A stretch of DNA of 64,000 nucleotides. Source: Gemmatimonadota bacterium (GTDB taxonomy: Bacteria; Gemmatimonadota; Gemmatimonadetes; Longimicrobiales; Gaopeijiaceae). The first letter of the stretch is position 1. Every line of letters starts with the position of its first letter. The stretch covers positions 1 through 64,000 of the forward strand of contig JAJCZZ010000062.1 of NCBI GenBank assembly GCA_029262115.1, read 5' to 3'. The notes below the pieces were generated by a model that saw only the letters and a program-made list of their open reading frames with translations, made no database searches and had not been told where the DNA came from. Positions 40,749 through 44,850 of this stretch are shown here, one piece after another. The translations under genes and the position numbers were made by a program.

Positions 40749-41000
40749 TCAGGGGCGCGCAGGCACCGGCGCACGGCCGTTCGCCGAGCGCAGCCTCCGA
40801 CGAAGCTCCACCACCGATGCGGTCTCGAGCGCACGGCGCGCGGTGCGCTCGGTATTCCAACGAACGTCGATCAACGGCCTCTCGTGCCCCCCGGAGGCGG
40901 GACTCATGACGAGATAAAACCGTCCCTTGTAGTCCGTCCCGGGCTCCTCCCTGACCGATGCCACCCACCGCTCACCCGACTGATCCGCGAATTCCCTCAT
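40749..41000 (-). CDS. Small protein of unknown function (83 aa)
   Basis: Basic C-terminus, strand-rich core (GRFYLVMSP) and a helix ending ALETASVVELRRRLR. No signal peptide or known motif. The ATG (MREFADQS) has GAGGGA five bases upstream; an in-frame extension of 18 residues is less likely. It follows an AraC-type regulator gene on the same strand, 85 bases away. Confidence 0.5.
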   Translation of the reverse strand: MREFADQSGERWVASVREEPGTDYKGRFYLVMSPASGGHERPLIDVRWNTERTARRALETASVVELRRRLRSANGRAPVPARP

Positions 41001-41085
41001 GTTCGTCCCTCGGCATCGGGCCGCCGACTTCCGGGCCGCCCCTCGTGTATACATGGATGATCGGCCTTACGAGCCCACCGCCTGG

Positions 41086-41910
41086 TCACGCCGCTGACCT
41101 GTCGACCGCCTCGCGCGCGTGATCGATCGAGCAGGCCGAGAGGAACTTCTCCAGGATGAAGACGAGTCCCCCGGCGGCGATCACCTCCGTAGGCGTGGCG
41201 CCCACATAGTTCCTGATGGCTCTTCTGAACGCGCTGCCACTCGAGTACTCCAACTGGCGAGCCACACTCTCCGCGCTCCGCCCAGGATCCGGCAACCACC
41301 GCCCCGCATACAGCAACCTCGCCCACACGAGAAGGTGCCCAGCCGAGGGGAGGCCCGCCGCCTTCAACCTCTCGCTCAGATGCGGTCGGCTGAGCCCCAC
41401 ATCCTCGGCAAGCTGCTCCGCCGACCAACCGAGCACCGAACACGTGAGCGCCGACCGGACCACCGCAGCTTCGCGCGGCGGAAGATAGGGGCTGACCGCC
41501 CGGGCAACCAGAGAGGCGGCGGTGGTTCGCAATGCCCGGTTCAGCTCTCGGCGGAGTCCATCCACGAGAAGATCCTGGGGCACCATCACGAGGTTCTCTA
41601 CCCTTGCTCGACCCAGACGAAGGAGAGCGTGCGGGTCGCTCAACGGTCTGGCGACCACGACACACCCGACGCTTGGGTAGTGCGCCTTGAGTTCCGCGAC
41701 CGCCCGTCCCAGGCCGCCGGCACGGCATGAGATCAGGTCGTCGACAACGACCCCGGTCACCGGACGCTCCCGGACGAGCCGAAGTACCCGGTCCCACGAC
41801 GTAGCAACCACCAGATCGTGGCGCCCAGCCACTACCTGTCGAACGGCCCGGTGAAGATCGGGGTCCGGCGAGAAAGCTGCTAATAAAGCCATGATCTTCG
41901 GAAAAGACAT
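41086..41910 (-). CDS. Pseudo-receiver / AraC-type HTH regulator
   Basis: 274 residues. Residues 1 to about 130 have the alpha/beta pattern of a receiver domain (MALLAAF, TGVVVDDLIS), but no typical phospho-acceptor arrangement, so signalling by phosphorylation is doubtful. The C-terminal half is a double helix-turn-helix of the AraC type (LAEDVGLSRPHLSERLKAAG, then SAESVARQLEYSSGSAFRRA). This is likely a transcriptional regulator of the divergent small peptide gene or of the TPR gene. The ATG at MSFPKI is followed six residues later by another ATG; neither has a good ribosome binding site. An upstream extension of 23 residues is unlikely. Confidence 0.7.
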   Translation of the reverse strand: MSFPKIMALLAAFSPDPDLHRAVRQVVAGRHDLVVATSWDRVLRLVRERPVTGVVVDDLISCRAGGLGRAVAELKAHYPSVGCVVVARPLSDPHALLRLGRARVENLVMVPQDLLVDGLRRELNRALRTTAASLVARAVSPYLPPREAAVVRSALTCSVLGWSAEQLAEDVGLSRPHLSERLKAAGLPSAGHLLVWARLLYAGRWLPDPGRSAESVARQLEYSSGSAFRRAIRNYVGATPTEVIAAGGLVFILEKFLSACSIDHAREAVDRSAA

Positions 41911-41950
41911 ACCCCACAGACAAAATGATACCCAGTCCCTACACCCCACA
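41911..41950. promoter_or_regulatory. Paired ACCCCACA direct repeats
   Basis: Two copies of ACCCCACA start 32 bases apart (41911 and 41943), about three helical turns, directly upstream of the regulator start and in the promoter region of the divergent peptide gene. Pairs of direct repeats are common binding sites for AraC-type proteins; low-confidence call. Confidence 0.3.
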
Positions 41951-42014
41951 CCCGATACTTCATGGGTAGCGGGGATCAAACCTCCCTAAGTCGTCCTTCA
42001 GACAGAAGAGTCCA

Positions 42015-42170
42015 ATGAAGAGCATCCGTCTGCTCCTGACCCTCGCGTTTTTCTCCCTCGGCGCCGCCGCCTGTGGATCGTCCTCGATCCTGGCGCCCGA
42101 CTGCGAAGATCCCACCACGTGCGAACACACTCCGGATTCCGGTAGCCACACGCCCGACTCCGGGAGTTGA
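42015..42170 (+). CDS. Small lipoprotein-like peptide (51 aa) with HTPDSGS repeats
   Basis: A short open frame with a Lys-Arg N-terminus, a hydrophobic stretch (LLLTLAFFSLGAAA) and a lipobox-like AAAC at Cys20. This is followed by a short mature part with two more Cys residues and the tandem heptapeptide HTPDSGS-HTPDSGS at the C-terminus. AGAAGAG upstream of ATG serves as ribosome binding site. It is transcribed away from the pseudo-receiver regulator and toward the large TPR gene. Whether it is a lipoprotein, a signal peptide precursor or a pseudogene-like remnant is open; the signal sequence and repeat argue for real translation. Confidence 0.5.
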   Translation: MKSIRLLLTLAFFSLGAAACGSSSILAPDCEDPTTCEHTPDSGSHTPDSGS

Positions 42171-42201
42171 ACAAAGGCTCAGGGAGTTGAACAAAGGCTC
42201 A
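42162..42201. repeat. 20-bp perfect tandem duplication
   Basis: Two copies of a 20-base unit beginning GGGAGTTGAACAAAGG occur back to back, each starting with the codons for the last two residues and stop of the small peptide. Confidence 0.9.
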
Positions 42202-42231
42202 GGCGGGGGCACCCACCAGCTCCCGCCTGAG
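42198..42231. terminator. Hairpin between peptide and TPR gene, likely bidirectional terminator
   Basis: CTCAGGCGGG and CCCGCCTGAG make a perfect ten-base stem with a 14-base loop. It overlaps the last codons of the TPR gene (minus strand) and follows the peptide gene (plus strand). Confidence 0.5.
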
Positions 42232-43965
42232 TACCTTTAGTTCGGTTCCCACCTCGGGAGTGGAAGGAACCGAGGAGGCTGACACTCGTCCGATGTCGCA
42301 GTCTTCGAGCGCCTGAAGCGCCTCTTCCGCTCGGAAGAGAACACGCGAAAAGTTGTGCTCCTGCGCGAAGTCGATTGACCTACGCAGCCACGATCGAGCC
42401 GTATCGGTACGATCAAGCACCGCATAACTCAGGCCCCGATAATACAGAATTTCTGCCTTTGCACTATTCTGTCCCGCCTCCCAGCCCATCGAGTCCACTT
42501 CGGCAGCCCGACGAGCGAACGTTGCCGCGTCTCCCCGCCGGGCAGCGATGTGCGACAGAGCATCCGCCGCGTAGAGCCTGTAGTAGGACTCGTCACTGGC
42601 GGCTGACACGATGGACCACGCGCTCTCCGCACCATCCATGTCTCCATGATCTTGGAGGACTCCAGCGAGTCCCGCCAAACCGCGGAGCCGGTCCTCATTA
42701 CTCGAGTACGATCGGACGGCCCGAAGGCCGTGGCGAGTCGCCTCGTCGAGGTTGCCGGCGTTGTGCTCCAAGCCCATGAAGCCATGATGAAGACGACCGA
42801 CGACTTCGCCGTCTCCGGACTGTTGGGCGGTCTCTAGCCCCAGAGTGAGGACTTCCCTCGCGGCGGGCAGATTCCCACGCTCACGATGGATGGTTGCAAG
42901 TCCGTCGTAGACGAGCGCGAGCCGACCCACCATACCGCATGCCGACGCGATCTCACGGGCCAGGTCGTACCGGGCGCGAGCCTCGTCCCAGCGGGACAGC
43001 CGGCGGAGGCACCGACCCGACCAGCGCGCAGCCTCCACCGCCACGTCGACGGCACCGACCGCAACCGCGACATCGAATGCAGAGGCGTACAGTTCCACCG
43101 CGCCGTGGGTGTGGCCCCAATCCTCGACGCTCTCGGCCCACAAAAGAACCGCCCCCGCCAAGCGTGCCAGGTCTCCGTCCGCGTAGGCGTCGAGCACGGC
43201 CAGCCAATGGCCTTGCTCGCGTTTAATCATGGTCGTGCCCGCGGCTTCCGAGGACGCAACCTCAGCGCGGGCCCGCTCGGCTTGCGCGCGCATACGTTCG
43301 GGCGCAACCGCAAGGTCATCGTCGATCAGGAGCTGTGGGAGCCGCCCGACCACAAATCGAAGCGCGATCTGCCGAGACTCGTCCGAGTCTCCCTCTCGCC
43401 CCTCGAGGTCCTTCAGGAGTCCAGCGCCGGCGAAGGCGGCCCCGGACGGCTCCCCATCGGCCCCGCTGCTACCAGGCAGATCCCTATGCAGGACGATCGA
43501 CGAGCATTCCCCCGCACAAAACAGCGCATCCTCCCGCGCCTGCCCCCGTAGGGATCGACGTGGCGAGATCGCATCGGCCGTGACGAACCACGCCCGGGTG
43601 CCGTCGCTGCCAAGAGCGATCGAGAGGCTCCACGCGGACCGTCCGTCGCCCGAACGCGACGTCACCTCATGCACACCGGGCACGCCGCCCTCCCAACTCG
43701 CCTTGAGGACATCCTCGGAGAACGTCCGCCGGGGCCGGTCGCTGAGCCGATCGACGACCACATGCGGATGCACCAATCCCGGGCCGTATTCATCCACCCA
43801 AACGACGGATGCACGGTCTGCCGAAAGCCTGTGGGCCATCTCGTCGAGTTGGGAAACGAGGGACGCTCGGGAGGCGTCGGCACCGTGAAGCGCCCGGGTC
43901 ACACTGAGACGCTGTCGGCGACGATCACGATGATCGTCGATGCGATGGACTTGAATTGAACTCAT
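42199..43965 (-). CDS. Large TPR-containing protein, unknown function
   Basis: 588 residues, cytoplasmic. The first 200 residues contain an alpha/beta region (RASVVWVDEYGPG, then SLSIALGSDGTRAWFVTADA) resembling a GAF-like sensor domain. From about residue 255 on it is all helical with TPR-style repeats (for example YDGLATIHRERGNLPAAREV and ALQALEDCD). There is no HTH or kinase domain. TPR bundles bind peptides and proteins, so it might sense the nearby peptide, or serve as a scaffold with the pseudo-receiver regulator. This is inference from gene order; no family name is assigned. Confidence 0.6.
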   Translation of the reverse strand: MSSIQVHRIDDHRDRRRQRLSVTRALHGADASRASLVSQLDEMAHRLSADRASVVWVDEYGPGLVHPHVVVDRLSDRPRRTFSEDVLKASWEGGVPGVHEVTSRSGDGRSAWSLSIALGSDGTRAWFVTADAISPRRSLRGQAREDALFCAGECSSIVLHRDLPGSSGADGEPSGAAFAGAGLLKDLEGREGDSDESRQIALRFVVGRLPQLLIDDDLAVAPERMRAQAERARAEVASSEAAGTTMIKREQGHWLAVLDAYADGDLARLAGAVLLWAESVEDWGHTHGAVELYASAFDVAVAVGAVDVAVEAARWSGRCLRRLSRWDEARARYDLAREIASACGMVGRLALVYDGLATIHRERGNLPAAREVLTLGLETAQQSGDGEVVGRLHHGFMGLEHNAGNLDEATRHGLRAVRSYSSNEDRLRGLAGLAGVLQDHGDMDGAESAWSIVSAASDESYYRLYAADALSHIAARRGDAATFARRAAEVDSMGWEAGQNSAKAEILYYRGLSYAVLDRTDTARSWLRRSIDFAQEHNFSRVLFRAEEALQALEDCDIGRVSASSVPSTPEVGTELKVLRRELVGAPA

Positions 43966-44048: not shown

Positions 44049-44822
44049 CTACACTCCACTTTCCAACTGTCCCCGGTGTCGCACTTCGGGGAAGTCGTAA
44101 TATAGCACACCCTCCTTCGAAATCTCAGATCGGACACGAAATCCGTCGTCCATCGACGTAAGGACGTTCTCCGCTGCCTCCAGCGACAGATTCATGTCCG
44201 CGGCCACCTCGGTGACGGTCAGGGTGCCGCCCTTCATCTGCGCCAACCGGAGGATCTTGCGCTGAAGCGCATGCATCAATGCGGTCCGACGCTCCTGGAG
44301 CGCCTGCCACCCCCAGTAGAAGGTCGACGAACCCCCGGCACCGATCACCGAGCCCACCGCGACCGCGGCCAACTCCCAGTCCACGAACCCCACCAGGATC
44401 AGCAGGCTGGCCACGAGGATCATGACGGTTCCCAGCACGCGGCGCTTCATCCCACTACTCGGGAGCGCCTCGTCCGGCTCCGCCTCGACCAACGCCCTCG
44501 ACTCACTACCGGCCACCATGGCCACCGCCCGTGACGCGTTCTCCCACCCCATTCCGCATCGTGGACAGATCAGGTGACGGCGCCGGGCCAACCAGTACAC
44601 CAGACCGCCGAGACCCCACGAAAACGCACTCACCCCGACCAGCAGTCCGACGTGACCGGCCCTACGGAAGTAGGGGATCCCCTCTCCCTGGTACGTGCAC
44701 CGCGGGCACCGTTTGACTCCGACGGAGCGCGTCACCGCCATGCCCACGGGAGTCCCCGTACCACATGTCGGGCACTGGGCGGCACCGGGCTGTAGAGTCT
44801 CACCACAGGTGGAGCAACGCAT
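44049..44822 (-). CDS. Zinc-ribbon membrane protein with winged-helix C-terminus
   Basis: 257 residues. Three CxxC pairs occur in the N-terminal half (CSTCGE, CPTC; CPRCTYQ; CPRCGMGW). Two hydrophobic segments lie around residues 55-80, and another pair lies around residues 128-170. The C-terminal 70 residues (ILRLAQMKGGTLTVTEVAAD, then NLSLEAAENVLTSM) form a winged-helix fold. Architecture of this kind is seen in proteins with a membrane-tethered DNA- or protein-binding domain, of unknown role. ATG or a GTG five codons earlier may be the start. Confidence 0.6.
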   Translation of the reverse strand: MRCSTCGETLQPGAAQCPTCGTGTPVGMAVTRSVGVKRCPRCTYQGEGIPYFRRAGHVGLLVGVSAFSWGLGGLVYWLARRRHLICPRCGMGWENASRAVAMVAGSESRALVEAEPDEALPSSGMKRRVLGTVMILVASLLILVGFVDWELAAVAVGSVIGAGGSSTFYWGWQALQERRTALMHALQRKILRLAQMKGGTLTVTEVAADMNLSLEAAENVLTSMDDGFRVRSEISKEGVLYYDFPEVRHRGQLESGV

Positions 44823-44850
44823 GAGCGACGGTCGCACGGAAGTTTAAGGG

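Follow-up and report, generated by a model that had tools for sequence, protein, structure and literature searches.

Peptide quorum sensing through cytoplasmic receptors built of tetratricopeptide repeats (TPR) has been described in Bacillota and in the mobile elements that they carry. In Rap-Phr systems, the TPR receptor lies beside a short exported propeptide whose active peptide is C-terminal, and Rap binds response regulators (Spo0F, ComA); in NprR-NprX, PlcR-PapR, and AimR-AimP, a TPR protein again goes with a small exported peptide, and the receptor has a helix-turn-helix (HTH) of its own. Here, we describe a three-gene locus at positions 41086-43965 of a 64,000-nucleotide stretch from a Gemmatimonadota bacterium (order Longimicrobiales; assembly GCA_029262115.1, contig JAJCZZ010000062.1, positions 1 to 64,000 of the forward strand; hereafter, the window). 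We posit, with slightly better than even confidence, that its genes form a peptide-signaling module that works like Rap-Phr. No description of such a system in Gemmatimonadota was found in the open-licence literature, and the large survey of RRNPPA systems covered complete Firmicutes genomes only (PMC10075063). All three genes that an initial annotation had placed here are present, in the order AraC, peptide, TPR:

41089..41892, minus strand: pseudo-receiver-AraC regulator, 268 aa from ATG 41892 (HTH_18; alignment A1)
42015..42170, plus strand: short lipoprotein, candidate multi-copy peptide precursor, 51 aa (slot, lipobox, and tail kept in 19/19 complete clade loci)
42199..43965, minus strand: TPR protein, 588 aa, proposed cytoplasmic peptide receptor (Pfam TPR_12; AlphaFold2 model; homologues in the order)

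The likeness to Rap-Phr extends beyond this layout. Some propeptides of the known systems carry tandem identical copies (PMC9765709, PMC11343458), as do the tails described below; the neighbor here is a pseudo-receiver regulator; and receptor-peptide pairs have expanded, with 11-21 TPR copies in many genomes of one family (f2). The differences are equally clear: the phylum is Gram negative, the receptor sequence is unlike Rap, the regulator is encoded in the same locus, the receptor has a GAF-like N-terminal domain or none instead of the Rap three-helix bundle and lacks an HTH, and the propeptide, here a lipoprotein, is encoded on the strand opposite the receptor gene. Unlike in NprR, PlcR, and AimR, DNA binding resides in a separate pseudo-receiver-AraC protein. 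RRNPPA propeptides are defined as 10-100 aa long and -60 to 400 bp from the receptor (PMC10075063); the window peptide has 51 aa and a lipobox and lies 28 bp from the TPR stop (relatives: median 24 nt, range -29 to 273 bp). The TPR-repeat receptor is likewise present (Pfam TPR_12; AlphaFold2 superhelix), of the mature C-terminal peptide of 5-10 aa that RRNPPA systems re-import via Opp for the receptor to bind, the window shows the sequence signature alone, a conserved C-terminal heptad, and in place of an RRNPPA-type N-terminal HTH or Rap bundle, the window clade has the GAF-like N terminus. Despite the similar size, spacing, and multi-copy propeptides, we do not file the module as RRNPPA because its receptor sequence is unlike and its N-terminal effector domain is different.

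A conserved trio and its heptad-tailed lipoprotein

The three-gene arrangement recurs in other genomes, as the initial annotation had proposed to check, and strong purifying selection has preserved the peptide frame. In 19/19 complete loci of the window's clade, the gene order is the same and an antisense lipoprotein of 41-86 aa lies between TPR and AraC. TPR homologues (E<=1e-20) occur in 29/154 genomes of the order and peptide homologues in 17/154, mostly adjoining the TPR gene. At two loci (L061, L125), independent deletions join the start of TPR to the rear of AraC, with TPR, the peptide, and part of AraC gone together; the trio has thus been lost as a block twice. Its syntenic neighbors in the clade (an SH3 protein, an Ig-like protease, a zinc-ribbon protein, a small 101-aa protein, and DacB) indicate that the locus is chromosomal and old. 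No second copy of the whole module was found in the window's own genome, and in a congener (G061), the contig stops short of the corresponding site.

The window peptide reads MKSIRLLLTLAFFSLGAAAC-GSSSILAPDCEDPTTCE-HTPDSGS-HTPDSGS. The exported 51-residue peptide with a tandem HTPDSGS noted in the initial annotation is borne out, and its signal can be further typed: the hydrophobic segment closes with the lipobox AAAC, a lipoprotein-type export signal, and the peptide is therefore a lipoprotein rather than a free exported peptide.

42015..42074, plus strand: lipoprotein-type signal peptide, up to and including Cys20, the site of lipid attachment (invariant across the 20 rows of alignment A4)
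42126..42146, plus strand: heptad copy 1, HTPDSGS (5 synonymous and 0 nonsynonymous differences to copy 2)
42147..42167, plus strand: heptad copy 2, HTPDSGS, ending at the C terminus (same comparison with copy 1)

A precursor in the clade has as many as 8 heptads. Within one precursor, these are identical or almost identical, and they differ between species; in a few loci, the heptad is single or absent. The tails are HTPDSGS x2 (window), HNPDSGN x3, HNPDAGN x4, YTPDGGN x4, HLPDSGT x3 plus HTPDPGT, YTPDPGA x7, [HY]TPDPGS x7, HGPDAGS x4, HTLGSGN x3/4/6, GTLGSGN x8, HHPGTGS x2, HNPN[VI]G x2, and YE[SA]GPN[NT] x2. Within the genus g36, congeners each have their own heptad (HNPDSGN, HNPDAGN, YTPDGGN, or HLPDSGT). 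Adjacent copies within precursors differ by 176 synonymous versus 11 nonsynonymous changes (pS 0.687, pN 0.015, pN/pS 0.02), a count to which the locus L071 contributed two copies, its two degenerate flanking copies being excluded (172 versus 11 without L071). As DNA, the copies are old; as protein, they are identical in most precursors. Copies alike within a precursor and different between congeners are the pattern expected if each copy must fit one partner.

It might be argued that the repeats arose by neutral tandem duplication, the tail being disordered and the adjacent regulator pair unrelated to it. Short tandem repeats do arise easily, and a second, 20-bp repeat (42162-42201) lies directly past the window's last heptad; the pN/pS of 0.02 between copies and a slot kept in 19/19 clade loci and in 61/92 loci of the wider sample described below contradict this account, which we regard as scarcely credible. 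Among nine orthologous pairs, the C-terminal seven residues are the best-conserved part of the mature peptide (81% identity versus 56% for the linker; 75% for the signal).

No family model in Pfam or NCBIfam matched the window peptide above any cut-off. LptM, OsmB, and PG1828 were rejected as the peptide's family; each matches weakly, for the most part through the lipoprotein signal. A match of the GTLGSGN repeats to the TigB ribosomally synthesized and posttranslationally modified peptide (RiPP) family (5e-7, 29.7 bits) falls under the cut-off of 70 and was likewise set aside. At the DNA level, the 20-bp tandem duplication (GGGAGTTGAACAAAGGCTCA x2) runs from the peptide's last codons across its stop into the TPR stop codon.

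The TPR protein and the pseudo-receiver regulator

In the 588-aa protein, Pfam finds TPR_12 (38.0 bits versus a cut-off of 30.1), and AlphaFold2 (pLDDT 90) models a GAF-like domain at about residues 31-160, followed by a TPR superhelix. The domain composition given by the initial annotation thus holds, the TPR part by Pfam and model, the GAF-like part by the AlphaFold2 model alone.

42304..43386, minus strand: TPR superhelix (VIA-align)
43486..43878, minus strand: GAF-like N-terminal domain (secondary structure of the model, not Pfam)

The top VIA-align match of the model is the Rap-CSF complex 4gyo (Z 20.5, 275 aligned, 4.0 A), tied with other TPR superhelices, and RapI, RapH-Spo0F, NprR-NprX, and phage Rap are also among the matches. 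The NCBIfam AimR model scores 9.8 bits against a cut-off of 70. The GAF-like domain is missing from relatives of 420-450 aa; an HTH had no match in the one such relative scanned, and there is no room for one beyond the shared N terminus. Candidate ligands for the window TPR protein are HTPDSGS and the longer HTPDSGSHTPDSGS. Elsewhere in the same genome, a lone 186-aa open reading frame (ORF) (L064, G000:C16:40028-40462) resembles only the GAF-like domain.

The longest form of the regulator's ORF (41086-41979, minus strand) begins at TTG 41979; conservation favors ATG 41892. Its double HTH is supported by HTH_18 (47.7 bits versus a cut-off of 33.6) and HTH_AraC (27.1 versus 26.6), and its model (pLDDT 89) combines a genuine (beta-alpha)5 receiver fold with the AraC HTH. 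The receiver matches many receivers at a Z of about 16; Spo0F as bound to RapH is one of them, and the orphan regulator HP1043 is another. In 23 aligned sequences, the acidic pair, the Thr/Ser, and the Lys of the active site are gone (Lys 0/23), and 19/23, the window (D51) among them, retain the phosphorylation-site Asp. The initial annotation was right to suspect a receiver-like domain seemingly unable to take a phosphate (DD, T, and K are missing), although Asp51 is retained.

41182..41412, minus strand: AraC-type DNA-binding domain (Pfam HTH_18)
41524..41892, minus strand: pseudo-receiver domain, roughly residues 1-123 (modeled receiver fold; active-site census)
41894..41912, minus strand: conserved element GTATGTCTTTTCCGAAGAT directly abutting the AraC start codon (a GTATRTCTTTTYCGAAGRT-type sequence is shared by the 19 aligned clade loci)

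A pseudo-receiver is defined as a receiver fold missing at least one of DD, D, T, and K, as is the case here, and what switches such proteins is a stated open question (PMC12632262). Like HP1043, JadR1, and others, the domain has the receiver fold without the catalytic residues; unlike them, it is joined to an AraC-type HTH in one protein and is associated with a TPR-peptide pair. The AraC and peptide genes diverge from a common 122-nt region (41893-42014), which suggests that the regulator controls the peptide's own promoter. The GTATRTCTTTTYCGAAGRT element in this region may be a promoter, an operator, or an ATCTT/AAGAT leader hairpin. The genome holds no other exact copy of the 41894-41912 element and no other good one, and a regulon driven by it was therefore rejected.

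Distribution across the phylum and two natural experiments

The pseudo-receiver domain occurs in 244/395 genomes of the phylum and the TPR family in 56/60 chosen genomes; most sampled f2 TPR copies have their own peptide. Loci were retrieved via TPR or AraC, except for L065-L068, which came from peptide matches. An antisense short lipoprotein lies at the 3' end of 61/92 assessable TPR genes versus 1/450 control genes of the same loci (p 5e-56), and by visual reading, further peptide loci are L077, L078, L083, L132, L134, L203, and L211. The conserved slot, this enrichment, and the heptad changes (5 versus 0 in the window, 176 versus 11 overall) rule out a chance ORF. In peptides from beyond the window clade, the C terminus is usually one motif (GYIGSGS, GGFIGSGG, GGWLGSGH, TIGSGG, GGMLGSGG), sometimes doubled (GSGMLGGGG x2, GGFLGSGGG x2); f4 and f5 family peptides instead have a terminal tail with Cys, e.g., CDQNNPNVCH. 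In the f3 family, AraC and TPR lie 2-6 nt apart in one operon, a spacing which argues that the two proteins work together.

The first natural experiment is the locus L137, where a lasso-peptide precursor (NF033521 leader, 21.6 bits versus a cut-off of 19) occupies the peptide slot as part of a complete lasso cluster (precursor, PqqD, lasso cyclase, and B2-like protease frame; L137:1331-6729) inside the AraC-TPR module. The predicted core starts GDDGSFAE and ends GYLGSGG, an end that resembles those of neighboring lipoproteins (GYIGSGS, GFLGSGS, GYIGSDT). With only the C terminus in common between two unrelated carriers, the C terminus is implied as what the module reads. The window locus itself has no leader, cyclase, PqqD, or protease of this kind; the window peptide has no leader match, and no homologue of the L137 cyclase or PqqD was found in the window or the other compared loci.

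Could the products instead be natural products or bacteriocin-like effectors on other cells, with the TPR protein as immunity or control and AraC as the production regulator? L137 is a true lasso cluster, multi-core precursors are common among RiPPs, the weak, subthreshold TigB match points the same way, and a core that co-diverges with a neighboring protein also marks bacteriocin-immunity pairs. However, the lipoprotein loci have no maturase or exporter next to them, the heptads are hydrophilic as well as short, the partner is a TPR-folded cytoplasmic protein rather than a membrane immunity protein, and the module is chromosomal and syntenic; we consider such a role quite unlikely.

A sensor of export status would involve no signaling between cells. 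Here, the TPR protein would bind the C terminus of the unexported lipoprotein and then free or hold AraC, reporting on export or the state of the envelope, with no peptide secretion or re-import. The TPR protein has no signal peptide and would meet an unexported precursor directly, the motif sits at a free C terminus, the classic position of a TPR ligand, the signal and lipobox are conserved nearly like the tail, and the peptide and AraC have a common divergent promoter region. Such a sensor leaves unexplained the identical tandem copies, the change of motif between congeners, the one-to-one growth to 11-21 pairs per genome, and the lasso replacement, and we judge it unlikely.

The second natural experiment is a congeneric pair of loci, L056 and L081. 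Identity is 91.8% in AraC, 88% in the promoter, 83% in the leader, 52-55% in the mature peptide, 35-68% in TPR, and 89% in the far flank; the drop falls exactly at the peptide core and continues through TPR (residual -29.9 versus an sd of 4.6 over 153 pairs). In pairs with an identical heptad, TPR divergence stays close to that of AraC. On sequence grounds, this is the pattern of a putative swapped or fast-diverging ligand-receptor cassette, and peptide-TPR matching appears well supported by this one strong case. In agr and ComQXPA, peptide core and receptor also co-diverge between conserved shared flanks, but those receptors are membrane histidine kinases and a dedicated enzyme modifies the peptides.

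The same pair bears on whether the peptide is simply a structural or metal-binding envelope lipoprotein with mechanical or binding repeats, whose expression alone TPR and AraC regulate. Repeat-tailed lipoproteins are common, and His/Asp/Gly-rich repeat tails could bind metals or glycans. Yet the peptide core diverges with TPR and not with AraC, the lasso replacement retains the C-terminal motif alone, single-copy relatives end in the same short motif, and the repeats change as a block between species, all of which make this explanation improbable.

A proposed mechanism and its difficulties

In total, the conserved trio, the selection on the heptads, their species-specific multi-copy nature, the co-divergence of L056 and L081, and the lasso peptide with the same C terminus support the peptide-sensing circuit that the initial annotation had offered as one explanation. 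That the peptide is cleaved, secreted, and taken up again, that it binds TPR, that TPR contacts AraC, and that the regulator has target genes are inferences. In the proposed mechanism, Sec would export the precursor, a lipid at Cys20 would anchor it in the envelope, and its tail would be cut into identical short peptides (e.g., HTPDSGS) or, in relatives, into a single C-terminal [hydrophobic]-G-S-G-x peptide. We speculate that the released peptide would enter the cytoplasm via a peptide importer and bind the concave face of the TPR protein, which would dock, Rap-like, on the AraC pseudo-receiver; bound peptide would alter this contact, and a regulator deaf to phosphate could thus be switched by peptide. 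For the broader proposition, we see roughly even chances: that a Gram-negative phylum has its own cell-cell peptide signaling, a genome having as many as some 20 receptor-peptide pairs, in which lipoprotein or lasso precursors yield C-terminal peptides that reach cytoplasmic TPR receptors and switch pseudo-receiver-AraC regulators without phosphorylation.

If true, this would be an independent or very distant counterpart of the Bacillota systems in a Gram-negative soil phylum, and the logic would have arisen or spread more widely. It would also be a candidate answer to what switches nonphosphorylatable pseudo-receiver regulators, one that can be tested using three small genes plus synthetic heptapeptides. 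A ready specificity matrix exists in the matched pairs whose heptads differ (L056 with L081, and the four g36 species).

Several observations weigh against a Rap-Phr-like module. Structurally, Rap-CSF is tied with LGN and other generic TPR superhelices, and sequence kinship with Rap is unsupported, given that the TPR profile retrieves LGN, OGT, and kinesin light chain rather than Rap. About one-quarter of the sampled TPR genes have no visible peptide, including whole clades (f3; L194/L201/L210/L219); AraC-TPR pairs without a peptide are those of f3 and L133, L135, L136, L150, L162, L194, L201, L210, and L219. The initial annotation had taken regularly peptide-less TPR and regulator homologues as a sign against its proposal; this does not apply within the clade, with a peptide in 19/19 loci, and some such pairs do exist elsewhere in the phylum. 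The swap pattern comes from one pair, its boundary lies ~0.9 kb from the end of a contig (G056) in a fragmented assembly, and a chimeric contig is possible. One precursor (G036/L071) has a TAA ahead of its repeats that cuts it short. The locus holds no dedicated protease or importer, and a lipid anchor is unusual for a diffusible signal; RRNPPA propeptides include some with lipoprotein-type signals (PMC9765709).

Other features of these loci deserve mention. Directly downstream of AraC, a small 101-aa protein (40749-41054, minus strand) is kept in most clade loci, and upstream of TPR throughout the clade lies a conserved membrane protein that begins with zinc ribbons and whose C-terminal part is winged-helix-like (44049-44837, minus strand). 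In four f3 operons (L059, L060, L138, L141), a small antitoxin-like frame lies downstream and ends in RDVLS (VERARREVGE..VRSIEAALAAAIDY). The window's own genome has a second pseudo-receiver-AraC (L124, G000:C63:93506-93991) without TPR nearby. Further such paralogues without TPR found nearby are L126-L130, L142, L143, L152, L153, L155, L158, and L160, and several of these regulators, L124 included in the set, adjoin an S13-type carboxypeptidase (DacB-like).

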